From Bradyrhizobium septentrionale (lineage in GTDB: Bacteria > Pseudomonadota > Alphaproteobacteria > Rhizobiales > Xanthobacteraceae), in NCBI RefSeq assembly GCF_011516645.4, contig NZ_CP088284.1:248001-312000 (forward strand): a stretch of DNA of 64,000 nucleotides. Direction: 5' to 3'. This document shows positions 9,363 through 28,179 of this stretch, in pieces. Numbering within the stretch: position 1 is the first letter of the stretch; every line of letters begins with the position of its first letter. The notes beneath the pieces are model-generated. The model had not been told where the DNA came from, ran no database searches, and saw only the letters and a program-made list of their open reading frames with translations. The position numbers were made by a program, and so were the translations under genes.

Positions 9363-10157
9363 ATGACCACCGATGCTCCGAAGAAAGCCGTCATTCTGGC
9401 CGCGGGCTTCGGCTCCCGTTTGCGGCCGCTGACCGATCTGCGGCCCAAGCCGCTTGTCGAGGTCAATGAAACGCCGATACTCCATAACGCGCTGCGAAAC
9501 TTGGAAGCGGTGGCGTGGAAGAAGTCACAATTGTATGGGCTACCGCAAGGACGCTATTCAATATGCCTGCGGCAGCCGCTTTGGCGAGCTCGAAATCAAC
9601 TCTGTCGAATCGTCCGGGTTCGACCGCAAGCAGCGCCTATTCTCTTTGGCTGGCGCGCGACGCGCTTTTTTCCGGAGACTGCTTCATTGTCGAAGGGTGA
9701 CGTCTTCTTTGAAGAGGATGCGTTGCGCTACTTAATGATGAGCCAAGCAACCGACGTGGCTGCAGTTGCTCCCTTCAATGAATCGATGGAAGGTTCGGCG
9801 GTCTTGTTGTCGGATAGCGGCGTCATCACGAGTTTCCGCATGAAACAGACCGCAGCTAACCTTGTCGCGGATGGCCCAAGACGTTTCAAGACGATGAACC
9901 TGCTACGATTGTCAGCGACGACGCTGAGAGCAACGATCGTTCCAGCGCTAGATGATCTCATCGGATCTGGAGCTACGCAGGCCTACACAGAGGCGCTCCT
10001 TGCCAGCCTGGTGGAAAGACGAGGCTTACGGATTGCAGCGTCGCGCTGCGACGGTCTCAGGTGGTACGAAATCGACAGCACCGAAGATCTGCCTATCGCG
10101 GAGCGCATCTTCACAAGAGCGCCCGCCTTCGATCGCGCCGGGCTACAGAATAGGCGG
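9363..10157 (+). pseudogene. Sugar-/phosphonate-type nucleotidyltransferase, frameshifted
   Basis: The start has the nucleotidyltransferase signature KAVILAAGFGSRLRPLTDLR followed by PKPLVEVNETPIL. After a frame change near 9500 the protein continues as VTIVWATARTLF / YRKDAIQYACGSRFGELEIN, then SLWLARDALFSGDCFIVEG, and after a further change near 9695 GDVFFEEDALRYLMMSQATD to the end. The order and spacing fit LicC/PntC-like cytidylyltransferases, which activate phosphocholine or aminoethylphosphonate. Next to a PEP mutase remnant, a CTP:phosphonate role is a reasonable inference. The 3' end is cut by the IS21 element starting at 10161. Confidence 0.75.
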
Positions 10158-10274
10158 AGGTGTCATTCGGCCTGCAATATTGACCCCCTAAGCCGGGGGA
10201 TCGGCGTCCAAAATTGACCCCCTGTAGGTTGGTCTGTTGCGCTGCCTGCTTTGGAATGAAGCAGGTGGTCGGGG

Positions 10275-11774
10275 ATGCTGGTCGTGGAGACGATTGCGCG
10301 GATTCGGCGCGAGCACTTCATCAAGGGCAAGACGATCAAGGAGATCGCCCGCGACCTGAAGGTGTCGCGGAACACGGTCCGGAAGGTGCTGAGGTCCGGA
10401 GGGACCTCCTTCGAGTACGAGCGGCAGGTGCAGCCACGACCAAAGCTGGGGCGGTGGGCATCGGAGCTCGATAGGCTGCTGGCGGCGAACGCGACCAAAC
10501 CGGCTCGTGAACAGCTGACGCTGATCCGGATCTTCGAAGAGCTGCGCGGGAGCGGCTACGACGGCGGTTACGATGCCGTGCGGCGTTACGCCAGGCGGTG
10601 GAGCAAAGAACGCGGGCAATCGACCGCGGCCGCTTATGTCCCGCTGAGCTTTGCCCCCGGCGAAGCCTACCAGTTCGACTGGAGCCACGAGGTGGTCTTG
10701 CTGAGCGGCACCACGGTGATGGTGAAGGCCGCCCATGTCCGGCTCTGTCACAGCCGCATGCTGTTCGTGCGGGCCTATCCGCGGGAGACGCAGGAGATGG
10801 TGTTCGACGCCCACGACCGGGCGTTCGCCCTGTTCAAAGGCACCTGCACCCGCGGCATCTACGACAACATGAAGACCGCCGTAGAGACGATCTTCGTCGG
10901 TAAAGGGCGTCTCTACAATCGCCGCTTCCTGCAGATGTGCAGCCACTATCTGGTCGATCCGGTCGCCTGCACGCCAGCGTCGGGCTGGGAGAAGGGGCAG
11001 GTCGAGAACCAGGTCGGGCTGGTCAGGGAACGCTTCTTCACGCCGCGGCTGCGGTTCAAAAACCTCGACGAGTTAAACGTCTGGCTGCTCGACAAATGCA
11101 TCGCCTACGCCAAGGCTCATCGCCATCCGGAGCTGGTCGATCAGACGATCTGGGAAGTGTTCGAAGCCGAACGCCCCAAACTCGTTCCCTATGCCGGCCG
11201 CTTCGACGGCTTCCATGCGGTGACGGCATCGGTCTCGAAGACCTGCCTGGTGCGCTTCGACAATAACAAATACTCGGTCGCAGCCAGCGCAGTCGGACGA
11301 CCGGTCGAGGTTCAAGCCTATGCCGATCGCATTGTGATCCGTCAGGATGGACGCATCGTTGCCGAGCACCCGCGATCCTTTGGCCGCGGCGATACCGTCT
11401 ACGACCCCTGGCATTATGTGCCGGTGCTCGCCCGCAAACCCGGCGCCTTGCGCAACGGTGCTCCCTTCAAAGACTGGGTGCTGCCGGCCGCGATCGAGCG
11501 GATCCGGCGCAAGCTTGCCAGCACCGACGATGGCAATCGGCAGATGGTCGACATCCTCAACGCGGTGCTGACTGACGGTCTGCCCGCGGTGGAAGCAGCC
11601 TGTGCTGAAGCGCTCAGTCACAGCGTCCATTCCGCCGATGTCGTGCTCAATATCCTGGCCCGTCAACGTGAACCCGCCCCACCGGCCAACATCATGACGC
11701 CGGCCGCACTGACGCTCCGTCATGCGCCGATCGCCGATTGTGCCCGCTACGACAACCTCCGGAGGACCATCTGA
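10275..11774 (+). CDS. istA: IS21-family transposase IstA
   Basis: The 499-residue product starts with a helix-turn-helix ([19 protein letters not shown], about residues 20-38), then a retroviral-integrase-type core with the DDE residues in [19 protein letters not shown] and [10 protein letters not shown]. It cuts and joins the IS ends. Its TGA overlaps the istB ATG as TGATG, the usual arrangement in this family. It looks intact. Confidence 0.96.
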
Positions 11775-12805
11775 TGGAACGAACCCAAATCTTCGACCTC
11801 ATGGGCGAACTCAAGCTCTACGGCATGAAGGCTGCCTTCGACGAGATCATGGCAACTGCCGTCAAACGCCAGCACGAACCTCAGCGCATTGTCGGCGACC
11901 TGCTCAACGCCGAGATCAACGAGAAGCAAGCCAGGTCGATCAAATACCAGCTCACCATTGCCAAGCTGCCGCTTGCCAAGGACATTGCCGACTTCCAGTT
12001 CGACGGCACGCCGATCAATCAGACTCTCGTCAATGATCTCGCTGGCGGCGGCTTCATCGCCCAACAACGCAACGTCGTGCTGGTTGGCGGCACCGGCACA
12101 GGCAAGACCCACCTGGCCATTGCCATCGCCAGAAGCTGCATCCGATCCGGGGCTCGCGGCCGCTTCTTCAACGTAGTCGACCTCGTCAATCGCCTCGAGA
12201 CCGAGACCCGCAACGGACGGCAAGGACGGCTCGCCGAGCATCTGACCCGGATGGACTTCATCGTGCTGGATGAACTCGGCTATTTGCCCTTCGCCCAGTC
12301 CGGTGGCCAGCTTCTCTTCCACCTCGTCAGCCGGCTCTATGAGCGCGCCTCTGTCATCGTGACCACCAATCTCGCCTTCGGCGAATGGCCGAGCGTGTTC
12401 GGCGACGCCAAAATGACCACCGCGCTGCTCGACCGGTTGACCCATCACTGCGACATTGTCGAGACCGGCAACGATAGCTGGCGGTTCAAGAGCCGAGACG
12501 ACGATCACGCCACCCGCGCTCGTCTCGCCTCCGCTATCCCGGCCAGCTCCGACGAGACGAGCGCTACCAGCAAAGCCCGCCGCGCAAAGGGGTCAAAATT
12601 GGACGCCGATGAGGGGCGCATTGCCTCATCGAAAATGTTACCGAACAATTCCGCTGATGACTGGGGCGGCGTTACCGAATCAGGTCGGTGGCGCCAATGG
12701 CGAGCGGGATCAGCATGGGCGCAAGGCGCGAGGTGTTGGCCGTGGTGGCGAGGCGCTACCGTGCGGCTGGACGAGTTGAGAAGGGACGGATCCTTGACGA
12801 GTTGA
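11774..12805 (+). CDS. istB: IS21 helper ATPase IstB with replaced C-terminal tail
   Basis: IstB is the AAA+ ATPase that selects targets for IstA. Walker A is [12 protein letters not shown] (about residue 110) and Walker B is [12 protein letters not shown] (about 165). The original gene ended inside the right IS21 end: joining 12616 to 14378 restores the reading DADEGSNLNAD followed by TGA at 14401-14403. The rve-type IS now replaces those last residues with about 63 foreign codons to 12805. The ATPase domain is whole, so activity may survive. Confidence 0.88.
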
Positions 12806-14377
12806 CAGCGACGACGGGTTGGCACCGCAAGCACGCGGTGCGAGCACTGTCGGTTGCCGGAAGGGACAGGCCCAGGCCACCACTGGACGAAGGGGCAACG
12901 AGCCCAACCGAACCAGCGACAAGTCGGCGACGCAAATACGCCAGCGTGCGCGACGCGCTGATCGCGCTGTGGGAAGCCTCCGATCGCGTCTGCGGTAAGC
13001 GCCTCGTATCGATGATCCCAGTGCTGTTGCCCGCACTCGAGCGGCATGGCCGGCTGAAGCCAACGAGCGCAGAGCGTGCGCTGCTGACAACTCTGAGCGC
13101 GGCGACGATCGATCGGATGTTGATCGACGTTAAAATTGCGGCTGCTGGGGGGCGCCGGCGGCGAGTCGGATTCTACTCGGCGATTCGACGCGAGGTGCCG
13201 ATCCGCACTTTCAATGACTGGGCAAACCCGCCGCCAGGCTTTTGCGAGATCGACATGGTCGCGCACGGTGGGACCAGCGTCGCCGGCTCGTTTATCCAGA
13301 CTTTGACCATGGTGGACATCGCAACAGGATGGACGGAATGCCTGCCCCTGGTGACACGCGATGGCAGCCTCGTCGTGGAAGCGATGAAGCGAGCGCAGGG
13401 CCTGTTCCCGTGGGTGATCTGTGGCGCCGACTTCGATAACGACAGCGCGTTCATGAACGACGTCGTCGTTCCATGGTGCCGAGCACAGAAGATCGAGGTA
13501 ACGCGGTCACGTGCCTACAAAAAGAACGATCAGGCTTTCGTGGAGCAGAAGAACGGTGCGGTGGTCCGGCGGCTCGTCGGATACGGGCGCTTCGACGGGG
13601 TCGAGACGGCCCGCGTGATGGCACGTCTCTACGCGGCGGCGCGCCTGCTGGTGAACTTCTTCCAGCCGTCATTCAAGCTCAAAGAGAAGCGCCGCGAGGG
13701 TGCCAAGATCATCAAACGCTATCATCCGCCTGCCACACCATACGAACGTGCACTGGGGCACCCGAAACTCCCATCAGCGGTCAAGCGCCGTCTGCGCCAC
13801 ACGTATCGGACTCTCGATCCCATACAATTGCTTGCCACGATCCGCACGGCGCAGGAAGAGCTCGGCGAACGGATCGGCAAGCGCGGTCTTGCGAAGGTTC
13901 CCACCGTATCGCCGGCTGATCCGCTCTCGTTTGCCCGATCGCTCGGCACGGCGGCAAAAACCGCCGAAGTGCGGGCCACGCACCGCCGGCCGAAACAGCG
14001 ATACAAAACGCGTATTCGCATGCCCTCGAAGCTCGATCCCCATCTCGCGATCATCGAGAACTGGCTCGCCGTCGAGCCACAGCTCACTGCACTGGCCATC
14101 GTGGGCAGGCTCGCCACGATCGATCCCTCGATGTTCAGCGACAAGCAGCATTCGATCGTTCAGCGCCTGCTTCGGTCCCTCCGGCGGAAGGTGGCGGAGA
14201 CAGCCATCGTATCCATGCCCGTGGATGAAATACGGCCCGAGGCTGTGGACGGCGCTGCGTGTGATGAGCACTCCGCCCCGCCCACAGCCTCTCCACCGAG
14301 CTGGCCGCGGCTCGAGACCGGTCTGGGGCAGTTCGTAGACCTTCATCCCGGGTAACATTACTTCCTGAGGCAATACG
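12617..14377 (+). mobile_element. rve-type insertion sequence (ISNCY-like) inside IS21
   Basis: The ends match as inverted repeats: the left begins CGCATTGCCTCA and continues to ATGTTACC, and the right read backwards begins CGTATTGCCTCA and also continues to ATGTTACC. The flanking AGGGG is repeated on both sides, giving a 5-base duplication (6 if GAGGGG is counted). A second copy with the same left end and an internal deletion is at 21798-22784. Confidence 0.85.
12688..14355 (+). CDS. Integrase-core (rve) transposase
   Basis: The 555-residue protein has an N-terminal helix-turn-helix-like region and a DDE integrase core: [20 protein letters not shown] and [13 protein letters not shown] carry the three acids. 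The C-terminal part has conserved [10 protein letters not shown]. The best fit is the rhizobial transposases usually filed as unclassified (ISNCY). A start further inside (MGARREVL) is possible. It looks complete. Confidence 0.85.
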
Positions 14378-14405
14378 AGGGGTCAAATTTGAACGCCGAT
14401 TGACA

Positions 14406-14952
14406 GATAGCCCTCATACTGGAGGCGCTCGGCCGCGGTGAGCAGTTTAGGATCGATTGTCGTTGCCCCGATCGCGCTGCGGATCTGGCGCATCGATTTG
14501 CGGACGGCATCGAGGAAGGCCCGACTGGCGTTCTCCATCAGATGCCACCGATCCGCGACTTGTACCGCCTGCGGCAGGGCCTTTGCCGCAGCTTCGCCAT
14601 ATCCCCCACCACGGTCACGGGCAATGATCGTGATAGTGGGATGAGCAGCCAGCCAGACTTGGGCGGTCGCGGGCTCACGATCCGGCAGCAGCGTAACGAT
14701 CCGGCGCCTTTCCAGATTGCAGATGATGCTGGCGTATCGGTGATTGCGCCGCCAGGCCCAATCATCGATGCCTATCACCCTGAGCGGGTCGGCCGGCGGG
14801 CGGCTGCGGCGTCGGACCACGCGCAGGAGCGTGTCTTTGCTCACCGGTAGCATCAGCCGCTTTGCGAAGCCTGCTGCTGGTCGACCGCCAAGCGCCAGGC
14901 CGAGGTGGTGGACGATAGAGTCCAGTCTCGCCGTGCGTCGCGCCGATGGAGC
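14406..14952 (-). pseudogene. ISL3-family transposase, central part (truncated)
   Basis: The reading SARRTARLDSIVHHLGLALG leads into IGIDDWAWRRNHRYASIICN and VADRWHLMENASRAFLDAVR, the DDE core of ISL3 transposases. The upstream (N-terminal) part lies on the other side of the IS3 element, at 16226-16538; removing IS3 joins the frame as EGVLAPSARR. The C-terminal end is cut off by the IS21 end at 14405. Confidence 0.88.
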
Positions 14953-15015
14953 TGACCTGCCACTGAATATTTCCTCCAGAAGGAGTTAGAGTCCGCCCCG
15001 AAGAAGGACGGACAG

Positions 15016-15282
15016 ATGAAGCGAGCACGGTTCACGGAAGAGCAGATTATCGCGGTGTTGAAGGAGCATGAGGCCGGGGCTAAGACGGCTGACCTGGCTC
15101 GCAAGCACGGCATCTCCGAAGCGACGATCTACAATTGGAAGGCCAAATTTGGTGGCATGGATGTCTCCGAGGCCAAGCGGCTGAGGGCATTGGAGGAGGA
15201 GAACGCGAAGCTGAAGAAGCTTTTGGCCGAGCAGATGCTCGATGCGGCCGCGCGTCGCGAGCTCCTTTCAAAAAAATGGTAG
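15016..15282 (+). CDS. IS3 transposase OrfA
   Basis: This 88-residue DNA-binding subunit has the helix-turn-helix [20 protein letters not shown] and a leucine-zipper-like tail. A run of seven A at 15269-15275, just before its stop, can shift ribosomes by -1 into OrfB to give the OrfAB transposase. Confidence 0.93.
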
Positions 15283-16193
15283 GGCCCGCCGCCAAGCGCG
15301 CTGCGGTCGCGCATCTGCAGGCCATTATGAGCCTGTCGGAACGGCGGGCCTGCTCGATCGTGGGCGCGGATCGGAAGATGATCCGCTATCGCTCCAGCCG
15401 TCCTCCGGACGCGGCTCTTCGTGGCCGGCTGCGTGACCTCGCCAACGAGCGGCGACGTTTTGGCTACCGCCGCCTGTTCGTCCTGCTGCGCCGGGAGGGC
15501 GAGCCGTCGGGGATCAATCGGATCTACCGGCTCTATCGCGAGGAAGGGCTTACCGTCCGCAAGCGGCGGGCTCGCCGCAAGGCCGTGGGGACCCGTGCCC
15601 CGATCCTGGTCGAGACGAGGCCCAACGCGCGCTGGTCACTGGATTTCGTCCACGACCAGTTCGCCAACGGTCGACACTTCCGCATCCTCAACATCGTCGA
15701 CGACGTCACCAAGGAATGTCTGGGCGCCATTCCGGAGACGTCGATCTCGGGGCGGCGCGTAGCCCGCGAACTGACGGCGATCGTCGAGCGACGCGGCAAG
15801 CCAGGAATGATCGTGTCCGACCATGGCACCGAGTTCACCTGCAACGCCATGCTCGCCTGGTGCAAGGACGCAGCCATCGACTGGCACTTCATCGCACCGG
15901 GAAAGCCGATGCAGAACGGCTTCGTCGAGAGTTTCAACGGCCGGATGCGCGACGAGTTGCTCAACAAGACCCTGTTCGTCGATCTCGACGACGCCCGCGC
16001 CAAGATCGCCAACTGGGTTGCCGACTACAATCTCCAGCGGCCTCACTCGTCGCTGAAATACCTCACCCCCGCGGCCTATGCCGCTCACCTCACCTCACCG
16101 CAACGGACGATCGGCTACGCAACCCCGACCAGCTTCGCCGATCGTCCGTTGCTCCACCCGCGCCACTTGGCGTACAAAACCCCGAGACTCTAA
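15276..16193 (+). CDS. IS3 transposase OrfB (read as OrfAB by -1 frameshift)
   Basis: The catalytic subunit has the DDE acids in [19 protein letters not shown] and [18 protein letters not shown], with the usual [13 protein letters not shown] end. Reading begins after the A7 slippery run; the ATG at 15276 is in the same frame. Intact. Confidence 0.94.
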
Positions 16194-16225
16194 CTGCCGC
16201 TGGATGAACGTTCAGGGGCAGGTCA

Positions 16226-16538
16226 GAGCCAGTACGCCTTCGGCGAAGCGCTCGGTAAAGACTTGGCGCCCGCACAGGACAGCGTCGCAGCGGAAGCGGC
16301 GAGCGATCACCAGGAGCTCTACAATCCGCCCCGAGAGCGGAAGATCCGTCACTCGCCGTCGATAGCGGCTATGGACGCGTCGGGAAACCGTTCCGCACGA
16401 CGGACACAGACCAACACTTCCGGACGCTCGGACCACAACAACGGCCTTATCACCCTCGTAGTACGCACTCTCTACAACAAACCCACGCGGCACCAGACTG
16501 GAGCGCTTGCTGCATGGCGCTGATTCTCCCCCAATCAA
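16226..16538 (-). pseudogene. ISL3-family transposase, N-terminal part
   Basis: This holds the zinc-finger-like start of an ISL3 transposase: GLCPSCGTVSRRVHSRYRRR and later RRFRCDAVLCGRQVF with paired cysteines. TTG at 16536-16538 is the likely start. It is separated from its core domain at 14406-14952 by the IS3 element. Confidence 0.88.
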
Positions 16539-16657
16539 AACGCCAGAGATCCCCCAAACTGCATCAAAAGTGATGGTGTGGAACGGCCCTTCGAACCGGC
16601 ATCAAAAGTGCCTAACGTGGTCGCTTCGAGAGGCGCCACAAGGGAAGGACCGTTCCA

Positions 16658-16907
16658 ATGGAGAAGATTATCACAGTAGGTTTGGATTTGGCTAAGTCGA
16701 TCTTCCAAGTGCACGGGATCGGCAACGACGGGAGAGTATTGGTTCGCCGCATGTTGCGACGATCGCAGGTGCTGCCATTCTTTCGAGCGCTCTCCTCTTG
16801 CCTGGTCGGCATGGAGGCTTGTGCGAGTGCACATCATTGGGCGCGCGAAATCGCGGCCCTGGGGCATTCGGTCCGCATGATGCCACCGGCCTATGTGAAG
16901 CCTTATG
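16658..16907 (+). CDS. IS110 transposase, 5' exon
   Basis: The first 83 codons and one base of an IS110-family (DEDD, RuvC-like) transposase, with the start ITVGLDLAKSIFQVHG and the conserved VGMEACASAHHWAREI. It breaks in the codon after VKPY exactly at a group II intron 5' end. Joining to 20744 gives YVKRNKTDMADAEAI with no frame change, for a 343-residue protein. It can be expressed only if both introns leave the RNA. Confidence 0.93.
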
Positions 16908-17397
16908 GTGCGCCCCGACGGCGCGCATTACCAGTGGAGGAAGGATCCACCCAGAGAATTGTCGATTGATCTGGTAGCTGACGAGCGGTTTGGACGAGCA
17001 ATCGGACGGATCGAAGCCTCGTGACAAAGGTCGCTTTTGGCGGCCGAGCAATCCAGCGGGCCGTAACGTGAGTGAAGCCTGAGCACGCCTCGAAAGTTAC
17101 GATGTGAATGCCGACCCGATCGTATGGCGGGGAAGGCCGCGCTGACAGGGAAGCAATCGACGCATGCACCTGTCCGGTTCACCGGGGTAATGGGCACGGC
17201 ACGCCGGAAAGGTAGTGCGGGTAATCGGGGGAGACCCGTCTTGGTCGAAGGTCGCGCCTTCAGCATCGAGTAGTCGATGGACCGGACGGGAGTCGGACAG
17301 GGTCGTAGTACTGATGAAACCGGGTAATTCCGGCGGAGGAAAGGACCCTGACTTCAGGTGCGCTTTTGAAGATGGCGAGGGAATGGGTCGATTGGCG

Positions 17398-18714
17398 ATG
17401 AGCCTACAAACGCCCGATAAGATCAGGAGCCTTCAGAGAAAGCTTTATCGCAAGGCGAAGGCGGAGCCTGCCTTCCGTTTCTATGTGCTGTACGACAAGA
17501 TCTGCCGCGAGGACATTCTGAGCCATGCCTACAAGCTGGCCCGCGCCAACGCGGGTGCGCCAGGAGTGGACGGAACAACTTTCGAGCAAATCGACGCGTC
17601 GGGACTCGAAGCATGGTTGGCCGGCCTGCGCGATGAACTCGTCACGAAGACTTACCGGCCCGATCCGGTGCGGCGGGTGATGATCCCGAAGCCCGGCGGC
17701 GGCGAACGTCCACTCGGTATCCCAACAATCCGGGACCGGGTCGTCCAAGCTGCCGCAAAGATCGTGCTGGAACCGATCTTCGAGGCGGATTTTGAGGACG
17801 GTGCTTATGGATATCGCCCGCGTCGTAACGCGGTCGATGCAGTCAAGGAAGTGCACCGGCTTGTGTGCCGGGGCTACACGGACGTTGTTGACGCCGATCT
17901 GTCGAAATACTTCGACACGATCCCGCATTCGGACCTCCTCAAATCGGTGGCCCGACGCATCGTTGACCGGAATGTGCTGCGGCTGATTAAGTTATGGCTG
18001 CGAGTACCGGTCGAGGAGCGGGATAGCGACGGGAAACGGTGCATGAGCGGCGGTAAGAGCAACAAGCGTGGCACGCCACAGGGCGGTGTCATCAGTCCGC
18101 TGCTCTCCGTCATCTACATGAACCGGTTCCTGAAGCATTGGCGTCTCAGCGGTCGGCGTGAAGCATTCCATGCCCAGGTTATCTCCTATGCCGACGACTT
18201 CGTCATTCTCAGCCGCGGCCACGCGGAGGAAGCATTGACGTGGACGAAAGCGGTGATGACCAAGCTTGGGTTGACGCTCAACGAGACTAAAACCTCGGTG
18301 AAGAATGCCCGATTGGAAAGCTTTGACTTCCTTGGGTACACGCTCGGACCCCGCCGCTTCCGCAATGGGGGACGGTGGTATCTTGGCGCGGCTCCGTCCA
18401 AGAAAAGCGTGCTGCGGATCAAGAGGAAGGTCAGCGTACTGCTGACGCCGGGCAACAAGGGCGCTTGGCCCGAAGTACAAGCACGACTGAACCGCCTTCT
18501 GCGCGGCTGGTCCGCTTACTTCAGCTATGGCTCTCTTGCTACGGCTCATCAGGCCGTTGATCGACACGTCTTCGACCGCGTGCTCGCCTTTCTGCGCAGA
18601 CGACATAAGACGCCAGGACGTGGCGTCAGACGGTTCTCTGATCGGATCCATGGGAACCCTGGCGTACTTGTGCTGAACCGCGTGCGCAAAGTGTCGCCGA
18701 CGTGCGCCTTGTGA
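17398..18714 (+). CDS. ltrA: Group II intron reverse transcriptase-maturase (copy 1)
   Basis: I start at ATG 17398 (MSLQTPDKIR); an earlier start would read through intron leader. The 438-residue product has RT blocks: GAPGVDGTTF, PLGIPTIRDRVVQ, VDADLSKYFDTIPH, GTPQGGVISPLLSVIYM and the active-site SYADDFVIL, then a maturase (domain X) region with LRGWSAYFSYG. No HNH endonuclease domain follows, so mobility would depend on the RT-only route. It helps the intron RNA fold, splice and reverse-splice. Confidence 0.95.
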   Translation: MSLQTPDKIRSLQRKLYRKAKAEPAFRFYVLYDKICREDILSHAYKLARANAGAPGVDGTTFEQIDASGLEAWLAGLRDELVTKTYRPDPVRRVMIPKPGGGERPLGIPTIRDRVVQAAAKIVLEPIFEADFEDGAYGYRPRRNAVDAVKEVHRLVCRGYTDVVDADLSKYFDTIPHSDLLKSVARRIVDRNVLRLIKLWLRVPVEERDSDGKRCMSGGKSNKRGTPQGGVISPLLSVIYMNRFLKHWRLSGRREAFHAQVISYADDFVILSRGHAEEALTWTKAVMTKLGLTLNETKTSVKNARLESFDFLGYTLGPRRFRNGGRWYLGAAPSKKSVLRIKRKVSVLLTPGNKGAWPEVQARLNRLLRGWSAYFSYGSLATAHQAVDRHVFDRVLAFLRRRHKTPGRGVRRFSDRIHGNPGVLVLNRVRKVSPTCAL

Positions 18715-18729
18715 CAAAACCTGTCGGAA

Positions 18730-18761
18730 AGCCGGATGCGGGAAAACTGCACGTCCGGTTT
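18730..18761 (+). ncRNA. Group II intron domain V (copy 1)
   Basis: A 32-base hairpin beginning AGCCGGATGC and ending ACGTCCGGTTT has the AGC triad and a GAAAA-type loop, the catalytic core of the ribozyme. Domain VI follows to 18825. Confidence 0.85.
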
Positions 18762-19315
18762 GATGAGCGGGGAGAGGAAACGGAACGCGCAACAAGCGCA
18801 TCACCGCGCCTCTCCTCGACTCTACGTGCGCCCCGACGGCGCGCATTACCAGTGGAGGAAGGATCCACCCAGAGAATTGTCGATTGATCTGGTAGCTGAC
18901 GAGCGGTTTGGACGAGCAATCGGACGGATCGAAGCCTCGTGACAAAGGTCGCTTTTGGCGGCCGAGCAATCCAGCGGGCCGTAACGTGAGTGAAGCCTGA
19001 GCACGCCTCGAAAGTTACGATGTGAATGCCGACCCGATCGTATGGCGGGGAAGGCCGCGCTGACAGGGAAGCAATCGACGCATGCACCGGTCCGGTTCAC
19101 CGGGGTAATGGGCACGGCACGCCGGAAAGGTAGTGCGGGTAATCGGGGGAGACCCGTCTTGGTCGAAGGTCGCGCCTTCAGCATCGAGTAGTCGATGGAC
19201 CGGACGGGAGTCGGACAGGGTCGTAGTACTGATGAAACCGGGTAATTCCGGCGGAGGAAAGGACCCTGACTTCAGGTGCGCTTTTGAAGATGGCGAGGGA
19301 ATGGGTCGATTGGCG

Positions 19316-20632
19316 ATGAGCCTACAAACGCCCGATAAGATCAGGAGCCTTCAGAGAAAGCTTTATTGCAAGGCGAAGGCGGAGCCTGCCTTCCGTTTCT
19401 ATGTGCTGTACGACAAGATCTGCCGCGAGGACATTCTGAGCCATGCCTACAAGCTGGCCCGCGCCAACGCGGGTGCGCCAGGAGTGGACGGAACAACTTT
19501 CGAGCAAATCGACGCGTCGGGACTCGAAGCATGGTTGGCCGGCCTGCGCGATGAACTCGTCACGAAGACTTACCGGCCCGATCCGGTGCGGCGGGTGATG
19601 ATCCCGAAGCCCGGCGGCGGCGAACGTCCACTCGGTATCCCAACAATCCGGGACCGGGTCGTCCAAGCTGCCGCAAAGATCGTGCTGGAACCGATCTTCG
19701 AGGCGGATTTTGAGGACGGTGCTTATGGATATCGCCCGCGTCGTAACGCGGTCGATGCAGTCAAGGAAGTGCACCGGCTTGTGTGCCGGGGCTACACGGA
19801 CGTTGTTGACGCCGATCTGTCGAAATACTTCGACACGATCCCGCATTCGGACCTCCTCAAATCGGTGGCCCGACGCATCGTTGACCGGAATGTGCTGCGG
19901 CTGATTAAGTTATGGCTGCGAGTACCGGTCGAGGAGCGGGATAGCGACGGGAAACGGTGCATGAGCGGCGGTAAGAGCAACAAGCGTGGCACGCCACAGG
20001 GCGGTGTCATCAGTCCGCTGCTCTCCGTCATCTACATGAACCGGTTCCTGAAGCATTGGCGTCTCAGCGGTCGGCGTGAAGCATTCCATGCCCAGGTTAT
20101 CTCCTATGCCGACGACTTCGTCATTCTCAGCCGCGGCCACGCGGAGGAAGCATTGACGTGGACGAAAGCGGTGATGACCAAGCTTGGGTTGACGCTCAAC
20201 GAGACTAAAACCTCGGTGAAGAATGCCCGATTGGAAAGCTTTGACTTCCTTGGGTACACGCTCGGACCCCGCCGCTTCCGCAATGGGGGACGGTGGTATC
20301 TTGGCGCGGCTCCGTCCAAGAAAAGCGTGCTGCGGATCAAGAGGAAGGTCAGCGTACTGCTGACGCCGGGCAACAAGGGCGCTTGGCCCGAAGTACAAGC
20401 ACGACTGAACCGCCTTCTGCGCGGCTGGTCCGCTTACTTCAGCTATGGCTCTCTTGCTACGGCTCATCAGGCCGTTGATCGACACGTCTTCGACCGCGTG
20501 CTCGCCTTTCTGCGCAGACGACATAAGACGCCAGGACGTGGCGTCAGACGGTTCTCTGATCGGATCCATGGGAACCCTGGCGTACTTGTGCTGAACCGCG
20601 TGCGCAAAGTGTCGCCGACGTGCGCCTTGTGA
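19316..20632 (+). CDS. ltrA: Group II intron reverse transcriptase-maturase (copy 2)
   Basis: Same protein as at 17398-18714 with one change, Arg18 to Cys (19367). All RT blocks, including SYADDFVIL, and the maturase region are kept, so both copies appear able to make active protein. Confidence 0.95.
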   Translation: MSLQTPDKIRSLQRKLYCKAKAEPAFRFYVLYDKICREDILSHAYKLARANAGAPGVDGTTFEQIDASGLEAWLAGLRDELVTKTYRPDPVRRVMIPKPGGGERPLGIPTIRDRVVQAAAKIVLEPIFEADFEDGAYGYRPRRNAVDAVKEVHRLVCRGYTDVVDADLSKYFDTIPHSDLLKSVARRIVDRNVLRLIKLWLRVPVEERDSDGKRCMSGGKSNKRGTPQGGVISPLLSVIYMNRFLKHWRLSGRREAFHAQVISYADDFVILSRGHAEEALTWTKAVMTKLGLTLNETKTSVKNARLESFDFLGYTLGPRRFRNGGRWYLGAAPSKKSVLRIKRKVSVLLTPGNKGAWPEVQARLNRLLRGWSAYFSYGSLATAHQAVDRHVFDRVLAFLRRRHKTPGRGVRRFSDRIHGNPGVLVLNRVRKVSPTCAL

Positions 20633-20647
20633 CAAAACCTGTCGGAA

Positions 20648-20679
20648 AGCCGGATGCGGGAAAACTGCACGTCCGGTTT
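20648..20679 (+). ncRNA. Group II intron domain V (copy 2)
   Basis: Identical to the domain V hairpin of copy 1, 1918 bases downstream. Confidence 0.85.
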
Positions 20680-20743
20680 GATGAGCGGGGAGAGGAAACG
20701 GAACGCGCAACAAGCGCATCACCGCGCCTCTCCTCGACTCTAC

Positions 20744-21525
20744 TCAAACGAAATAAGACCGACATGGCTGATGCAGAAGCCATTTGTGAGGCTGTCACCC
20801 GTCCGACGATGCGGTTCGTACCGATGAAGACTGCCGAACAACAAGCCGCCGGTATGATTCTGCGGGCGCGAGAGCTGCTGATCAGACAGCGGAGCCAGAC
20901 TGCCAATGCTCTGCGCGCTCACATGGCCGAGTTGGGTATTATTGCGGGGACGGGCATGGCAAGCATCGCGAAACTTCTGGGATTGCTCCGGGAGGGGGAA
21001 GACGACAGGATCCCCGCCACCGCCCGCTTTGCCCTGATCCATTTCGCTGAACAGATTGAGCTACTTACAAACCGCATAGAGAAGCTCGATAGAGAGATTT
21101 TGGTTGCCGTCAGAACGGATCCCGATGCGAGGCGTCTGATGAGCATTCCCGGTGTTGGTCCTCTCATCGCCGCTACCGTTCGGACATCGGTCTTGGATGC
21201 TCGTGGCTTTGCCACTGCACGAGATTTTGCGGCTTGGATGGGTCTGACGCCGAGGGCACAATCGAGCGGTGGGAAAGAAAGGCTCGGCGCGATATCGAAG
21301 CGGGGAAATCGGCAACTACGGACGCTCTTAATCGTCGGTGCAACTTCTATCATCAAGCTTGCCAAACGAGGCTTGAAAGTCCCGCTCTGGGTTCGGACCA
21401 TGCTGCAACGCCGGCCGGTCAAGGTCGTATCAGTGGCGTTAGCCAACAAGATTGCGCGCACCATCTGGGCGTTGCTAGTCAAGGGCGGCATCTATCAGGC
21501 ACCGGCCGCAATGCTGAAATCTTAA
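20744..21525 (+). CDS. IS110 transposase, 3' exon
   Basis: This continues the gene started at 16658: VKRNKTDMADAEAICEAVTR, then LMSIPGVGPLIAATVRTSVL and FAAWMGLTPRAQSSGGKERL, the Transposase_20 domain with the conserved serine-containing PxxxSSGGK motif. It ends at 21525. The reading is intact apart from the introns. Confidence 0.93.
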
Positions 21526-21797
21526 TCTTAAGAGCTCATCGGCAGAAAAGGAAAGCCGCCGAGGAGGCAGGGTGCAATCTGGATGAACACTGAATGACGA
21601 CATTCCCGGTAGCAATCAGACCGCCTGACTCACCGCGCTTCGAGCGCGCAAAATTGATTGGGCGATTGCTTCCGCGGACATCATCGTGGCCAGCGGCCAG
21701 GTGCCGCGTCACAGGCCGAACATATGACCGCACCGCCATTCCTTGTTCAATCAGAGAAAGACCTTGCAGCCCGGGCCGTTCCACATATGAGTCAGAG
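21526..21797 (+). other. Spacer after IS110
   Basis: No gene is visible. It may include the right end of the IS110 element and host or other-element sequence before the deleted rve-type IS. Confidence 0.4.
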
Positions 21798-22784
21798 CGC
21801 ATTGCCTCATCGAAAATGTTACCGAACAATTCCGCTGATGACTGGGGCGGCGTTACCGAATCAGGTCGGTGGCGCCAATGGCGAGCGGGATCAGCATGGG
21901 CGCAAGGCGCGAGGTGTTGGCCGCGGTGGCGAGGCGCTACCGTGCGGCTGGACGAGTGGAGAAGGGACGGATCCTTGACGAGTTGACAGCAACGACGGGT
22001 TGGCACCGCAAGCACGCGGTGCGAGCACTGTCGGTTGCCGGAAGGGACAGGCCCAGACCACCACTGGACGAAGGGGCAACGAGCCCAACCGAACCAGCGA
22101 CAAGTCGGCGACGCAAATACGCCAGCGTGCGCGACGCGCTGATCGCGCTGTGGGAAGCCTCCGATCGCGTCTGCGGTAAGCGCCTCGTACGGGCGCTTCG
22201 ACGGGGTCGAGACGGCCCGCGTGATGGCACGTCTCTACGCGGCGGCGCGCCTGCTGGTGAACTTCTTCCAGCCGTCATTCAAGCTCAAAGAGAAGCGCCG
22301 CGAGGGTGCCAAGATCATCAAACGCTATCATCCGCCTGCCACACCATACGAACGCGCACTGGGGCACCCGAAACTCCCATCAGCCGTCAAGCGCCGTCTG
22401 CGCCAGACGTATCGGACTCTCGATCCCATACAATTGCTTGCCACGATCCGCACGGCGCAGGAAGAGCTCGGCGAACGGATCGGCAAGCGCGGTCTTGCGA
22501 AGGTTCCCACCGTATCGCCGGCTGATCCGCTCTCGTTTGCCCGATCGCTCGGCACGGCGGCAAAAACCGCCGAAGTGCGGGGCACGCACCGCCGGCCGAA
22601 ACGGCGATACAAAAAGCGTATTCGCATGCCCTCGAAGCTCGATCCCCATCTCGCGATCATCGAGAACTGGCTCGCCGTCGAGCCACAGCTCACTGCACTG
22701 GCCATCGTGGGCAGGCTCGCCACGATCGATCCTTCGATGTTCAGCGACAAGCAGCATTCGATCGTTCAGCGCCTGCTTCGGTCC
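21798..22784 (+). mobile_element. Deleted, truncated copy of the rve-type IS
   Basis: The left end is the same as that of the copy at 12617. An internal deletion of about 570 bases joins AAGCGCCTCGTA to CGGGCGCTTCG, removing the first two DDE acids and shifting the frame. The right part stops at 22784, where another transposase remnant begins. It cannot make transposase. Confidence 0.9.
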
Positions 22785-23251
22785 ATGAACAGATCTGTAA
22801 GCAGCAAAGCAACTTCGACAACGAAGTCCGCCAGTTGGCAAAGTCGGATGAGACGACGCGCCGCCTGATGACTGTTCCTGGCGTTGGCGTGGTGACCGCC
22901 TTGACCTTCCGCCATACGATCGATGACCCATCGCGATTCCGATCAGCATCGAGCGTCGGCGCCTATCTAGGTCTTACACCTCGGCGCAATCAATCTGGCG
23001 AAACTGACATCAATGGCAAAAGATCACGATGGGGCGACCGTCTTCTTCGAACTTACCTGTTCGAGGCCGCGACCGTCCTGCTTTATCGAACGAAGAAGTG
23101 GTCGTCCCTTAAGGCCTGGGGAATGAAGCTCGCCAAGAGGATTGGCATGAGGAAGGCGAAGGTCGCCATCGCGCGCAAGATCGCCGTTGTTCTGCACTGC
23201 ATCTGGGTCGACGGCACATCGTTTGACTGGGGCCAAGCAAAGGAAGCCTGA
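22785..23251 (+). pseudogene. IS110-family transposase, C-terminal remnant
   Basis: The Transposase_20 domain is readable: [40 protein letters not shown] and [15 protein letters not shown], to the end at 23251. The N-terminal half is missing, replaced by the truncated IS at its left. Confidence 0.88.
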
Positions 23252-23442
23252 TCCGATTTTGTAAAGTTCCTGGTCCGGTCTGCCGGACTGGCGATGTCCC
23301 GCTGGGACGGTGTTGTGGCGACCTCGTTCATTCGGCTGGTGGCGCTCGACTGTACTCCGCTGCAGACGTTGAGGCGTCCGACCCGGACATCATCATGAGG
23401 CGCTGCGCGACCTCGGAAAGGACCATGACCCCGGCGAAGACA

Positions 23443-23784
23443 TCAACCAGCCCGTACTGTCCAATGCCTGGCCAGTAGAGCATGTATCAGCCGCGCCCGC
23501 GCCGTCTCCGCAACCCCGACCAGCTCCGACGGCGCGGGCGCTACCACCTTGCCGTTGGAGAGTTCGAAAATGTGAGCTTGACAACAAACCGCAATTAAAG
23601 GGCCGAATGACACCGCTCTCCATGCGTTCGGAAGTTCGGTCCGAATGTCGACGACCGCCAGCGTGACGTCGCTACCTTCGACGCGGTCGGCAGTCACCCG
23701 TCGGACGGACGGATGCGACTCGATGAGACGCAGGGCCCGTCGAACGGGTATCGGAATGTCGTCCTTTGCGGAGATTTCTGCCAT
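23443..23784 (-). pseudogene. Possible E2-like protein, N-terminal fragment
   Basis: From ATG 23782-23784 the product starts MAEISAKDDIPIPVRRALRL and then DVTLAVVDIRTELPNAWRA. This resembles the start of prokaryotic E2-like (ubiquitin-conjugating-type) domains joined to E1/ThiF proteins, but the part that would hold the active cysteine is absent: after NAWRA the reading changes character and ends at 23443. It begins five bases after the metallo-beta-lactamase gene stops, so they were probably one operon. The family call is tentative. Confidence 0.35.
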
Positions 23785-23788
23785 CCGC

Positions 23789-24936
23789 TCATCCGTGAGC
23801 GAGCGGCTGGCTGCCGATGCCGGTGCCGGCGGCGACGCTGACAGCGATCGCCGCACGCTTGATTCGCGGTCCGGCCGAGCTGACCTCGATCACCAGCGGG
23901 TCATCGCCGGGGCCGTCGGCGACACATTTGAATTCGCCCTTCACCGGATCGAGGATGTGGAGATATTCGCGCTTTGCACGGATGCAGGGCGGATCGTGTT
24001 CGTCGTCCTTGATCGTCTTGCTGCTGGCGACGATCAGCGCGCCGTCGAGCGGCTGGCCGAGGGCGCTGCGAGCGGGCCCGGAAACTTTGGCGCCTTCGCC
24101 TTTCTCTGACCAACTGTCGTAGGACAGCCTGTGCCAGGAACAATGGTGGGGAGCGATCAGGACGTCGTATTGAAGGCGCTCAGGCCACTTCTTGTTGCGC
24201 TCCCAAACGCGGTCCCAGACCGCAACTTCGGCGTCGCCGCCGAGAAGGAAGCGGCCGCGCGTGACCTTGGAGACCTTCAGATCGAGCCGCATGATGACGC
24301 TGGAATTGTTCTTGGTGAGGACTTCCTCCTCCTCCTTGTCGGAGGCCAGCATCGGTGCCAGCAGGCGCGCCTCGAAGGAGGTGTCGTTCGCGCCGCAGAT
24401 CTTCGAGAAGACCTCGTCGACCTTCACTAGAATCTCCGTCAGATCGTCGGTCTTGCCATCGACGTCCTCGCCGAGGATCAGAATTCGGTTCCCGTCTTCG
24501 GCACTGCGGTGCTTCTTGAAACGGTTGGCGCGACGGCGCGCTTCGTCCCGCCAAGCCTCGGCGTCTTCGCAGAGGACATGATCTTCGTCTTTCGCCCTCG
24601 CCCGGCGGAACACGATCGGCGACGACCATATCTCGCGGATGATGATCTTGTCGTCGGCCTTCACCCAGCCTGAAGGATCGCCGAGGTGGAAGTGCTTGGA
24701 GAGGCCTCGGATGTGATCGGCGTCCGGATGAGTGTTGAGGAAGGCATCGACAAAGAGCCGGCCTTTTTCGTCCCGATCGAGCTTTTTCCGGAGCTGCTTA
24801 GCGACGTCGGGGTGTCGTCGTCCTCGTCATCTGCGGCCTGGCGGATGTTGATGTCGCACAGGATGCGCCTTCCCGACTCGGTCTCGAACAAGACCATGTC
24901 GCCGTTGTCGACGTTGAAAAGCGTTGCTTTGAAGGC
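23789..24936 (-). pseudogene. Metallo-beta-lactamase-fold hydrolase, frameshifted and 5'-fused to a transposase
   Basis: Reading from about 24936: KATLFNVDNGDMVLFETESG, CDINIRQAADDEDDDTP, then after a lost base near 24812 DVAKQLRKKLD ... AFLNTHPDADHIRGLSKHF. The THPDADH motif is the metal-binding signature of the fold (HxHxDH type). Further on are LGGDAEVAVWDRV and YDVLIAPHHCSWHRLS with another conserved His pair, as in ComEC-like hydrolases. The open part to 23789 begins at MKADDKIIIRE (24664). The frameshift lies in a four-base run (GGGG on the plus strand). The original start is gone, replaced by IS110 sequence. Confidence 0.7.
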
Positions 24937-25629
24937 GACGCCGCGCATGGCCTGCACGGCCTCTACGAATGGCATCATCGACCATTGTGGCGCCAGCTCC
25001 TCCATCCGCTTGGTCAAGCAGTCCACACGGGCCTCAGCGTCGGTCACGGCAAGAATGTAGTCCTGCAGAACGATTTGGCCCGCCGGGTGATCGAAGCGCA
25101 CCGTAGTGAGCCAGCGACGATAAGCCAGAGTCCACCCCTTCTTCCCGGCATAGATGCGCCCATGTCGCAGCAGATATCCTTGGAGATGTTGCCGCGCCTT
25201 GCCGAGCACACGCATCGCCGTGGCGCGGGCTCTCACCAAGTCGCGCATGGCCTCATGCGCCGCATCCGGAACCCACACGGCCGTCAGCTCGCCGCTCCGG
25301 TGCAACTTGGCCAGCATCGCCGCGTCGCGCCGGTCCGTCTTGACCCGATCCCCAGCCTTCATCGGGATCAGCGAGGGGGCCACCACGATGCAGTTGTGCC
25401 CCAGTCCCGTCAGTTGTCGATGCAGGCCATATCCGCAGGGTCCGGCTTCGTAACAAAAACTTACCTGTCGGTCACCCTTGCCAAGCTTCTTCGCCAGCTT
25501 GTCGATTTGATCGGCGCGATTAGGGATGATCCCCAAGTTACGAACTTCCCCGCCGCGCATCGCTTCGGCCACTGCAACCGAAATCGTCGCCTTGTGCACA
25601 TCCAGCCCCACGAAAATGCTATCGTTCAT
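24931..25629 (-). pseudogene. IS110-family transposase, N-terminal part
   Basis: The DEDD catalytic domain is present: DSIFVGLDVHKATISVAVAE, CYEAGPCGYGLHRQLTGLG and KTDRRDAAMLAKLHRSGELT. It stops at VQAMRGVA, just where the C-terminal Transposase_20 domain should begin, and the frame continues without a break into the metallo-beta-lactamase gene (FKATLFNVDNG), giving a 322-codon chimeric open frame to 24661. Confidence 0.92.
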
Positions 25630-25775
25630 CAGGCCCGCTCCCCATGCTTGAGGCTCGGCGCCGGACCATCCGGCGCAACCCTCGATAGGAGCTTGCCGCG
25701 GGGCGGGCCGCCCGTCACCTCAGAGGGCGAACATAGGGTCTAGGTCCTGTGCGAAGGGGACTTGCGGCGCAGCGC

Positions 25776-26267
25776 TCACAGCCAATCGCGATTCTTGACG
25801 AGAAGCTCGTCGAGCTCAAGATCAAAGAAGTCAATTTCTGCACGCTCTGGGGTTGACGGATCATTGAAGTGTAGCGTATATCCACTCACGCCGGTCAGTA
25901 CCGCTACATGCTTAGCCCCCGCTGCTAGAGTTACCGCAGCCCAGATCGGCCCTCGCCTCAGCAACGTCTCGGCGAGAAAATCGCGCGTAAATCCGCCATA
26001 TGGCTGTACGAGCCTCTCCAATCCTTCGATCGAAGCCAAATAATGAAAACAGTCTCGGTCGAGGCCTGCGTCGGCCCGCCAAAGCGTAGGCAAACCCAGG
26101 CGAGGCCCCGGGCGAAAGTAATAGGACACCATACAAGCGGAAGCATACCAACAAGCCCAACTCCCCCACGGCCGCATAATTCCGTGGTGATCTCGTCGCA
26201 TGATCGGTTGACCATCATAGCCACGCTCTTGGCCGACAAGCGGAACCCTCAATTGTATGTTTAGCAC
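25776..26267 (-). CDS. Papain-like cysteine protease (C39/C70-type)
   Basis: I start at GTG 26265-26267 (VLNIQLRVPLVGQERG); the longer frame upstream is rich in unrelated residues. The 163-residue product has the papain-like triad: Cys in MRPWGSWACWYASACMVSYY (probably the Cys of ACWYA), His in AAGAKHVAVLTGVSG and Asp/Asn in LHFNDPSTPE. The size and order resemble the AvrRpt2/C70 and Peptidase_C39-like families, some of which are plant- or bacterium-directed effectors. No signal peptide is seen. It stands alone between an IS110 fragment and an IS4 remnant, so its partners are unknown. Confidence 0.65.
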   Translation of the reverse strand: MLNIQLRVPLVGQERGYDGQPIMRRDHHGIMRPWGSWACWYASACMVSYYFRPGPRLGLPTLWRADAGLDRDCFHYLASIEGLERLVQPYGGFTRDFLAETLLRRGPIWAAVTLAAGAKHVAVLTGVSGYTLHFNDPSTPERAEIDFFDLELDELLVKNRDWL

Positions 26268-26630
26268 TGCACAGCTCCATAAGTTTAAGGCGAGCCAAGC
26301 AAATAGCGCGCCAAGGGCCCGCGAACAATTACGAGAAAAATAGTCTCTTCGCTGGTAGTGATGGGGTTGTCTAATCGCTGCTGAAAACGTCAAGGAAATA
26401 ATCTCCTTGAGGGACTGCCGGGTGCTCTGATCGCACCGAGGATTCCGCCGGCCAAGCGCGGCGGCCGGCCGCGGAATGTCGATGTCCGCGAGGTTCTTAA
26501 CGCGATCTGTACGCATACGACGAAGCTTACGATTACCCACATCTTTTGAGGTGCGCTGAGCCGAAAAACTTGAGTCGCCAGAATCGCTTGTAATTCTTTG
26601 ATGGGCACCTGATTCGAGAAGAGGTGCTCT
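26268..26630. other. Spacer before the IS4 remnant
   Basis: No gene is visible. A GCGGCCGGCCGC palindrome is present near 26459, and the left end of the IS4 element is probably near 26550. Confidence 0.4.
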
Positions 26631-27436
26631 ATGGGACTGACTTCACGCGCCCGGGATGAGAAGGCGCATCGGTTGGCGTCTGACGTTGTGACTTGGTTTG
26701 ACCGTGAAGCTGCGCTTTGCGAATTCCAGGACGCTCGACTTGGCGAGAGATTTCGTATGCTGCTGAAGCAGATTGGTGGAGACATCGGACAGAGCATCCC
26801 GATGGTTTGCCAAGACTGGGCGAATACCAAGGCGGCCTATCGTTTCTTCTCCAATGAACGAGTAGGCGAGGCCGATATCCTGTCCTGGTCATTTTAAAGC
26901 GACACGGGAACGTATCGCGGCTGCGAAGGGGCCTGTTCTTGTCCTGCATGATGCGACCGAATTCAGCTATCAAAGGGAGCGCCCGGATCTGATCGGGATG
27001 ATTAAGCGCATCCCCAAAAGCAACTCTCGAAGATTGGACGGGAACCCCCAAACGTACACGACATGCGGAATATTGATGCATTCGAGCCTTGCGGTGACCC
27101 TCGAGGGGCTTCCACTGGGGCTCAGCGCTGTGAAGTTCTGGACCAGAAAGAAATTCAGAGGGGTCGCTGCGCTCAGGCGCGAGGTCAACCTGACACGGAT
27201 CCCCATTGAAACCAAGGAGAGCATTCGGTGGTTGGAGAACCTCAAACAATCCACCGAGCTTTTCGAGAAGCCACCGCAGTGCATCCATACCGGTGATCGT
27301 GAGGCCGATATTTATGAATTGTTTTGCGCCGCCCAAGAGGTTGGAACGCATTTCTTGGTAAGGACCTGTGTCAATCGCCTGGCAGGCGATGACGATCATA
27401 CCGTTGCAACGATTGAGCCGGTCCCGATTGTCTGAA
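26631..27436 (+). pseudogene. IS4-family (Tn5-like) transposase, broken
   Basis: The first frame has ASDVVTWFDREAALCEFQD, ARLGERFRMLLKQIGGDIGQ and WANTKAAYRFFSNERV, typical of Tn5-like transposases, and stops at 26897. The next frame takes over as GHFKATRERIAAAKGPVLVL then HDATEFSYQ and IHTGDREADIYELF, to 27436. A frameshift at about 26885 and loss of the C-terminal catalytic Glu region make it dead. Confidence 0.88.
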
Positions 27437-27475
27437 CAGAATCTCCGCATCAATAAGTGGAGCCTCTGCCGGGGT

Positions 27476-27690
27476 TTAGGCTGCCGTACGGAGCGGCAGC
27501 GAGGTGAAGTAGGCTTGATCCGGTGTGCCGCCGTCAAGGCTCGAATGTGGACGGCGGCAATTGTAGAAGTCGAGGTATCGGCCGATCGAGGTACGAGCTT
27601 CGCTGACGTTCTCGTAGGCCCGCAGATAAACCTCCTCGTACTTGACGCTGCGCCACAGCCGCTCGACGGTAAGCGCGAATTTCTCCGCAC
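27476..27690 (-). pseudogene. IS3-family OrfB, C-terminal fragment
   Basis: The reading VERLWRSVKYEEVYLRAYEN, then SIGRYLDFYNCRRPHSSLDG and a stop at 27476-27478 is the last 65-70 residues of an IS3 (IS2/IS51-type) transposase. The remainder is absent. Confidence 0.88.
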
Positions 27691-27750
27691 CTTTTGCTTT
27701 TGAGAGTCCTGATGCATGAGGTGTCCACCAAAATAGGTGGACACCTTGTG

Positions 27751-28131: not shown

Positions 28132-28179
28132 CGCCAAAACGACATATCTCGCTCGGCTGGTTGCTCACCGGTTGTCGTG

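Follow-up and report, generated by a model that had tools for sequence, protein, structure and literature searches.

Does a group II intron shield the site that it occupies from a second copy of itself? The window analysed here, a stretch of 64,000 nucleotides from the soil bacterium Bradyrhizobium septentrionale, contains a natural test of this question: an IS110 transposase gene carries two complete group II introns of 1918 nt each in head-to-tail order, copy A at 16908..18825 and copy B at 18826..20743 (all features given are on the forward strand). Zero bases separate them at the exon-free junction CTCTAC/GTGCG (18825..18826). The units differ at exactly two positions, intron positions 264 (T in A, G in B) and 542 (C in A, T in B), the same count as in the preliminary description of two copies abutting at this point, and their comparison over the full 1918 nt ruled out a chance or low-complexity repeat. 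The repeat continues for 0 bases outside the units on either side, and the boundaries are without microhomology. Unit comparison, RNA-model matches and protein-family matches agree that two group II introns stand head to tail in the IS110 gene, and the tandem, read from the assembled sequence (4 contigs for 10.4 Mb), is confirmed as real.

In each unit the group-II-D1D4-4 model matched with 103.9 bits and RF00029 (domain V/VI) with 47.2 bits, the latter stopping exactly at the unit's last base (18727..18825 in copy A, ending at the junction, and 20645..20743 in copy B); both copies have a domain I core together with domains V-VI (RF02003, RF00029). An open RT-maturase frame was likewise found in both, at 17314..18714 in copy A (466 aa when counted from the annotated start in strain 162S2, L036; the longest listed ORF is 17215-18714) and, from the ORF list, at 19232..20632 in copy B, whose protein differs from that of A by one residue (R/C). 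The domain scan was run on the copy A protein, with B represented by its one-residue difference, and returned RVT_1 and GIIM (Pfam) and TIGR04416 above cut-off. No endonuclease domain was detected in the copy A protein (Pfam at E<=0.001 gave RVT_1 and GIIM only, and NCBIfam was likewise without one). The expectation of an intact RT-maturase and domain V in both copies was thus borne out by the open frames and RF00029 matches in both and by RVT_1 and GIIM in A, and the element is predicted to be a mobile, endonuclease-minus group II intron with an RT-maturase. Neither copy interrupts the body of the other, as in a nested twintron, since both are contiguous and complete and meet at their ends; nor is there a single ribozyme with D5-D6 ahead of D1-D4, as in a circularly permuted intron, since both introns are in normal order.

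The host gene is split into a 5' exon of 250 nt (16658..16907) and a 3' exon of 782 nt (20744..21525). NF033542 matched exon 2 with 237 bits, above the curated cut-off and alongside PF02371 and PF01548, and matched the short exon 1 partially, with 70 of 140 bits, below cut-off (E 2.5e-19). An uninterrupted IS110 copy in the same genome (L092), in which exon 1 abuts exon 2, specifies a 343-aa protein that contains both IS110 domains, and the two window exons sum to its ORF including the stop. These exon lengths uphold the earlier claim that the host frame is exactly restored if both introns leave.

To define how the intron recognizes its exons, we examined pairing with the flanks. IBS1 (-7 to -1, 16901..16907) pairs with EBS1 of copy A (intron 214-220, 17121..17127) at 6/7 positions including wobbles, and EBS1 covaries with the 5' flanks among relatives. 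IBS2 (-14 to -10, 16894..16898) pairs with EBS2 of copy A (intron 190-194, 17097..17101) at 5/5 positions including wobbles; support for both elements is moderate, with 3-5/5 pairs across 13 distinct flanks that belong to the same EBS1 family and weak pairing, judged by eye, in some distant relatives. EBS3 of copy A (intron 283, an A, at 17190) was assigned by covariation with the first base of the 3' exon, here a T with which it pairs: this pair is Watson-Crick in 36/37 copies, across A, T and G variants. Recognition of the flanking exons is thus seen through EBS1 and EBS3 covariation, with EBS2 weaker, and pairing of +1 with a single intron base away from EBS1 is of the IIB type. The exon 1/intron boundary is one of 23 among 127,958 window positions that score as high as 6/7 on EBS1 and 5/5 on EBS2, a ranking affected by the choice of the EBS2 position after inspection of the flanks of such sites. 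On the 3' side of the site, one position (+1) was seen to pair here.

Much of how the locus came about can be read from sequence, thanks to two alleles, a single-intron sister strain and an empty IS110 copy. Nine full copies of the intron were found in the genome, and the seven besides A and B are all single. Among the close copies read, 542C (17449, Arg) is confined to A and to an identical ectopic chromosomal copy (L001), while B (19367, Cys) and the other close copies read carry T; 264G of B (19089) is absent from the remaining eight full copies. On a plasmid of the sister strain B. septentrionale 162S2, the orthologous site holds one intron with the consensus alleles, B-like at 542 and A-like at 264. 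In an alignment of 34.8 kb, the window and that plasmid differ by 4 substitutions and a single 1-base gap, and A's 542C and B's 264G are two of these substitutions. This restriction of 542C to A and L001 within the close copies read makes it improbable that A is a mere duplicate of B. The alleles alone do not identify the resident, as the sister copy resembles B at one position and A at the other, and the same alleles could have been obtained by gene conversion, or by mutation in A and subsequent spread from A to L001.

The explanation that we consider probable, with considerable reserve, is that B is the older resident and that a ribonucleoprotein from a sister copy retrohomed between the 5' exon and B. 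B would first have occupied the IS110 site; an RNP of the L001 lineage would then have targeted the same site, and A would have inserted precisely where the 5' exon meets B, despite a mismatch at EBS3. In the occupied site IBS1 and IBS2 are kept at the 5' boundary, while +1, formerly T, becomes the intron's first G. A second insertion would be possible because the first leaves IBS2-IBS1 untouched at its 5' end and alters the 3' side, so the premise of the preliminary description, one intron per site from ordinary retrohoming, is too strong. Since no endonuclease domain is recognised in the protein, base pairing is probably the main basis of recognition, and the precise junction, lacking microhomology, points to the intron machinery. 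We infer this order of events, like the retrohoming step itself, from the pairing and the alleles. Counting against it, EBS3 of A cannot pair canonically with a G at +1. According to the available text of PMC3123198, homing of RmInt1 requires IBS2, U-15, IBS3 and G+4, and the compensated construct tested there did not invade a +1 G target; insertion at the 5' junction should therefore be inefficient, and 3' exon bases past +1 may also matter for homing. The sole EBS3 mismatch among the 37 copies is a natural copy with EBS3 A at a +1 G site (L051), which provides a precedent for this configuration.

Among the three routes proposed in the preliminary description, the best fit is insertion at an intron-exon junction, namely the 5' one. 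Integration of an intron circle was the second, and more generally the tandem could have arisen in one step from a multimeric template, with the RT circling an intron circle or lariat repeatedly or a dimer RNA being reverse spliced, so that a dimer filled or replaced the site and both base changes arose afterwards. Head-to-tail intron circles are known for Ll.LtrB, according to the text available in PMC6248898, and the six full copies found in Bacteroides oleiciplenus (see below) all lie in identical pairs, as expected for a dimer moving whole. We nevertheless regard such an origin as unlikely here: A and B differ at two sites and A's allele is common to L001, both of which make a circle the less simple source, and 162S2 has a single intron, so that a dimer must have found the site empty or replaced its occupant.

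The third route, unequal recombination or another DNA-level duplication between intron copies, followed by gene conversion of A towards L001, is very unlikely. Nine near-identical copies supply the homology, and one intron of 162S2 with mixed exons (L037) resembles, and is likely to be, the product of an exchange between two intron-bearing IS110s; however, recombination within introns swaps exons and by itself gives no exon-free junction, and the boundaries show zero microhomology. A reversed order, with B as the newcomer at A's 3' boundary, is geometrically possible, as the +1 T would stay, and the 162S2 copy is A-like at 264. The intron 3' end as a target pairs at just 1/7 positions with EBS1 and 1/5 with EBS2, and the 162S2 copy is B-like, not A-like, at 542, which makes this order highly improbable. 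Finally, an assembly artefact that counted one intron twice is very unlikely: the 1918-nt repeat is present in nine copies and the tandem is known from assembled sequence, but the assembly has four contigs, B carries 264G, an allele absent from every other full copy in this genome, and the allele of A recurs in just one other, distant copy.

The pairing rules give clear predictions for the RNA. B's own 5' splice site would be blind because the bases preceding B are the 3' end of A. Either A would be excised first and the exon handed to B, or A's 5' site would be joined directly to B's 3' site, a plausible event raised in the preliminary description; both routes would restore the IS110 frame. 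For RmInt1 excision, the available text of PMC3123198 reports IBS3 to be dispensable and EBS1-IBS1 to be the most critical pairing.

RmInt1 of Sinorhizobium meliloti resides in an insertion sequence. It is a group IIB intron and, like the Bradyrhizobium intron, a mobile RT-maturase intron of rhizobia with EBS1/2/3 recognition (PMC3123198, PMC4496777, in the text available), and it is described as likewise without an endonuclease domain (PMC8914252). The IS110 host and the direct tandem set the present introns apart, and the likeness is one of features. Prokaryotic twintrons of Thermosynechococcus, Trichodesmium and Methanosarcina likewise use one group II intron as the landing place of another, and sequential splicing has been demonstrated for that of Trichodesmium (PMC2882425, PMC4424553, PMC4649490, available text); these are nested, with the inner intron interrupting the outer, whereas here both introns are whole and the boundary is the site. 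A tandem splicing mechanism has been proposed for the adjoining fungal mitochondrial group II introns rnl-576/rnl-577 (PMC12308204, PMC8208691, available text), which are, in contrast, two distinct organellar introns with a one-nucleotide exon between them. At the A/B junction D5-D6 is also followed immediately by D1-D4, the domain order of circularly permuted group II introns (PMC8637638, available text), but here both introns are complete and known from DNA sequence.

We searched for comparable tandems elsewhere. Among the matches listed for 265 genomes of the genus, with two candidates scored per genome and places ordered by E-value, an 800-nt junction query was matched in full only in the source genome (G000). 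An 18-nt junction pattern (<=1 mismatch) occurred in 2/265, G000 and G141; the latter was rejected, with no domain V in the 90 bases upstream of the pattern and a genome without an intron match. In G087 and G006 a match ran 8 bases beyond the intron end into sequence that is no intron start. In a sample of the order, the junction was found in 1/397 genomes, the source genome. Among 248 plasmid records with a match, two from Microvirga ossetica covered >=80% of the junction query and proved to be single shortened introns whose pieces had been joined. Viral contigs gave 0 stretches with the pattern and no relative of the intron protein.

A GTDB-wide scan returned 7 stretches (L075-L081), a lower bound since the strict pattern misses tandems with other D5 or 5' ends. 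Two of them (L080, L081) are direct exon-free tandems from B. oleiciplenus, extended to three pairs (L080-L087) that comprise all six full copies found there, with two further partial matches at contig ends marking a candidate additional site. The pairs share the direct head-to-tail layout of A and B but differ in that they consist of identical copies of an unrelated 2417-nt intron (D1D4-7) in a draft assembly. Their 3' exon starts with GTGCA at 2/3 tandem sites, like the intron's own GTGTG, a point in favour of insertion at the 5' junction, and the intron's first base may be tolerated at +1; the AATAC start at the third site counts against this reading. Within the Bacteroides genus group, the full junction was found in 1/119 genomes, that of B. 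oleiciplenus only (up to five candidates scored per genome). The MAG contig L077 is intron only, with a complete 2082-base unit standing between a 128-base tail and 2031 bases of the following unit; the units differ at 119/2031 positions, no exon is visible, and a misassembly is possible. In L076 and L079, ~9 nt separate an intron from the 5' part of a second, different intron that comes after it. L075, with no D1 match past the junction, and L078, with no group II match at gathering score, were not counted. Among the matches listed from the open-licence PMC literature, we saw no account of bacterial group II introns in direct, exon-free tandem: PMC4496777, PMC5894124 and PMC8919778 do not mention 'tandem' in the text available, which in PMC8742464 and PMC8503264 denotes DNA repeats and in PMC3522654 intron/IS pairs. 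PMC7049729, a paper on a plant mitochondrial group II intron 'invading itself', may be relevant.

Comparison with 162S2 suggests that the second copy landed at the edge of the first, so that occupation of a site may not bar another insertion. We tentatively propose, as a possibility that we ourselves hold to be doubtful, that occupied homing sites are not immune: the intron would re-enter at its own 5' boundary, arrays would grow from the 5' side with the most upstream copy the youngest, tandems would be the rule where the first base is tolerated at +1, and the two members of a pair may be spliced and mobilised together as a composite unit. Arrays of this kind would provide ready raw material from which circularly permuted introns, and introns carrying additional D5-D6, could form. 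A reusable 5' boundary would explain tandem introns, give arrays a direction of growth and offer a simple source of rearranged and of alternatively spliced group II introns.

The genome comprises 10.4 Mb in four contigs, and the window lies on a contig of 456,902 bases. The preliminary description of two group II introns placed directly end to end and differing at two bases was borne out: copy A (16908-18825) and copy B (18826-20743) are abutting units of 1918 nt each, their sole differences are at intron positions 264 and 542, and the match between them stops at the unit boundaries at either end. Each is a complete group II intron, with an open RT-maturase frame and Rfam matches to D1 and to D5-D6, the second of which stops at the last base of the unit. 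In the copy A protein, RVT_1 and GIIM were identified, and the domain matches listed for it include no endonuclease domain. A nested twintron and a circularly permuted intron were both rejected for the A/B pair.

The sequences flanking the tandem are two parts of one IS110 transposase gene. Four copies of exon 2 were found in the genome, namely the window copy, L005 and L009, which carry a single intron each, and the uninterrupted L092, in which exon 1 is directly joined to exon 2 and whose product is 343 aa long and has both IS110 domains. Because exon 1 runs into exon 2 as an intact ORF in this natural copy, from which the frame was judged rather than from artificially joined flanks, the earlier claim that the host frame is restored if both introns leave holds.

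At least nine full intron copies are present in the genome, A and B plus seven that stand singly, as judged from the 40 candidates scored out of 84; their common allele state is 264T, 542T. A differs from it by 542C and B by 264G, and L009 has a private change at 537. L001, a chromosomal copy located outside IS110 (G000 C2:2247018-2248935) and directly upstream of the gene for an Rrf2-family regulator, is identical to A. In relatives with 82% identity or more and a readable base at the position, 542C was found only in L001 and A, and it reappears only in relatives below 79% identity. Since two singly changed copies would carry the same change by chance in only about 1 in 1918 x 3 cases by our estimate, a link between A and L001 through descent or conversion is probable, and A probably did not arise as a mere recent duplicate of B. 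The 264G allele is shared by B and L051, a relative in another genome, and position 264 has therefore changed more than once.

The orthologous region is carried by plasmid pBs162S2a of the sister strain Bradyrhizobium septentrionale 162S2, to which window positions 1-12616, 14377-18825 and 18826-36606 align (34.8 kb) with four substitutions (17449, 19089, 25986, 36561) and one 1-base gap (33821). Substitution 17449 is the allele of A and 19089 that of B, and the orthologous site holds one intron with 264T and 542T. In this comparison, the tandem is specific to the window's strain and is most simply regarded as recent, although 162S2 may have had the tandem and lost one copy. Four intron copies of 162S2 (L036-L039), a subset of those in that strain, were compared. 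One of them, L037 on pBs162S2b (3110-5027), has exons of two IS110 types, one on the 5' side and the other on the 3' side, and is likely the product of recombination between two intron-bearing IS110 copies. An insertion element at ~12617-14376 of the window is missing from the sister plasmid; it encodes a 555-aa protein (12688-14355) with an rve-like match just below the Pfam cut-off, and a rearranged partial copy lies at ~21869-22868.

The alignment of relatives revealed two stretches of high variability and a single variable base within D1. Intron positions 214-220 (EBS1) pair with the seven 5' exon bases nearest the intron and covary with them. Position 283 (EBS3) pairs with +1, the first base of the 3' exon, as A-T in 25, T-A in 2 and G-C in 9 of 37 copies, counted after four loci repeating the same places were dropped (26/27 by distinct exon context), the one mismatch being A-G in L051. 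Positions 190-194 are the likely, less firmly supported EBS2; across the 13 distinct flanks belonging to this intron's EBS1 family they form 3-5 of 5 pairs, with pairing that is poor by eye in some distant relatives. L001 is the only one of these flanks with 7/7 EBS1 and 5/5 EBS2 pairs.

The empty site offers 6/7 EBS1, 5/5 EBS2 and 1/1 EBS3 pairs and the exon 1|A boundary 6/7, 5/5 and 0/1, while the intron 3' end as a target offers 1/7 EBS1 and 1/5 EBS2 pairs. After an insertion, the 5' boundary thus still presents an almost complete target, whereas the 3' boundary presents none. Eleven EBS1 and EBS2 pairs are reached at 23 of 127,958 window positions, the exon 1|A site included. Of the routes offered in the preliminary description, insertion at an intron-exon junction, and specifically the 5' one, is favoured. 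A second retrohoming event at the exon 1|B boundary would yield exactly the observed A/B junction, with A as the newcomer and B as the resident. We consider it reasonably probable that A arrived in this way, given the pairing, the link between A and L001, and the likeness of the 162S2 copy to B at 542. Against this, the 162S2 copy resembles A at 264, so that the alleles alone do not name the resident. The same likeness would favour B as a newcomer inserted at A's 3' boundary, which we nevertheless regard as very unlikely, as no target is left there.

The cost of re-entry by A is the EBS3 mismatch at the occupied site. For RmInt1, IBS2, U-15, IBS3 and G+4 are named as needed for homing, and the compensated construct tested failed to invade a target with +1 G (PMC3123198), which argues for a rare event. 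In L051 (G090, C103), the EBS3 base is A and the site has G at +1, and position 264 is G as in copy B; this relative is a natural case of an occupied site of that kind.

RmInt1 excision is described as not needing IBS3, with EBS1-IBS1 critical (PMC3123198). By analogy, we infer a splicing scheme in which A would leave first and B, unable to start before A, would then splice; alternatively, A's 5' site might be joined directly to B's 3' site, which is predicted to have the better EBS3 pair.

In the order sample of 397 genomes, the junction pattern was found in this genome only, and among 265 genus genomes in two, one of which was not an intron end. A strict D5-to-5'-end pattern gave seven stretches over GTDB genome contigs, two of them from Bacteroides oleiciplenus. 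There, the six full copies found of an unrelated 2417-nt intron form three exon-free pairs, and two more partial matches sit at the ends of contigs; the pairs are to be viewed with caution, given the identity of the copies and the draft state of the assembly. The 3' exon begins with GTGCA at two of the three tandem sites, with AATAC at the third and with ATCAG at a broken fourth. As GTGCA is close to the intron's own GTGTG, the occupied site there resembles the empty one. L077 (1-4241), a MAG contig, is built entirely from head-to-tail group II intron units: a tail is followed by one full unit and the greater part of another, and these two units differ at 119/2031 positions (~6%). In Burkholderia aenigmatica and Pseudomonas veronii (L076, ~7241-7249; L079, ~4978-4986), ~9 nt separate a group II intron from the 5' portion of a different group II intron downstream of it.

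No report of a bacterial exon-free group II tandem was found in a literature search of largely open-access papers; the closest published arrangement found is a fungal mitochondrial intron pair that differs in having one nucleotide between its members (PMC12308204). The parts of the tandem are ordinary mobile group II introns and their arrangement is unusual.
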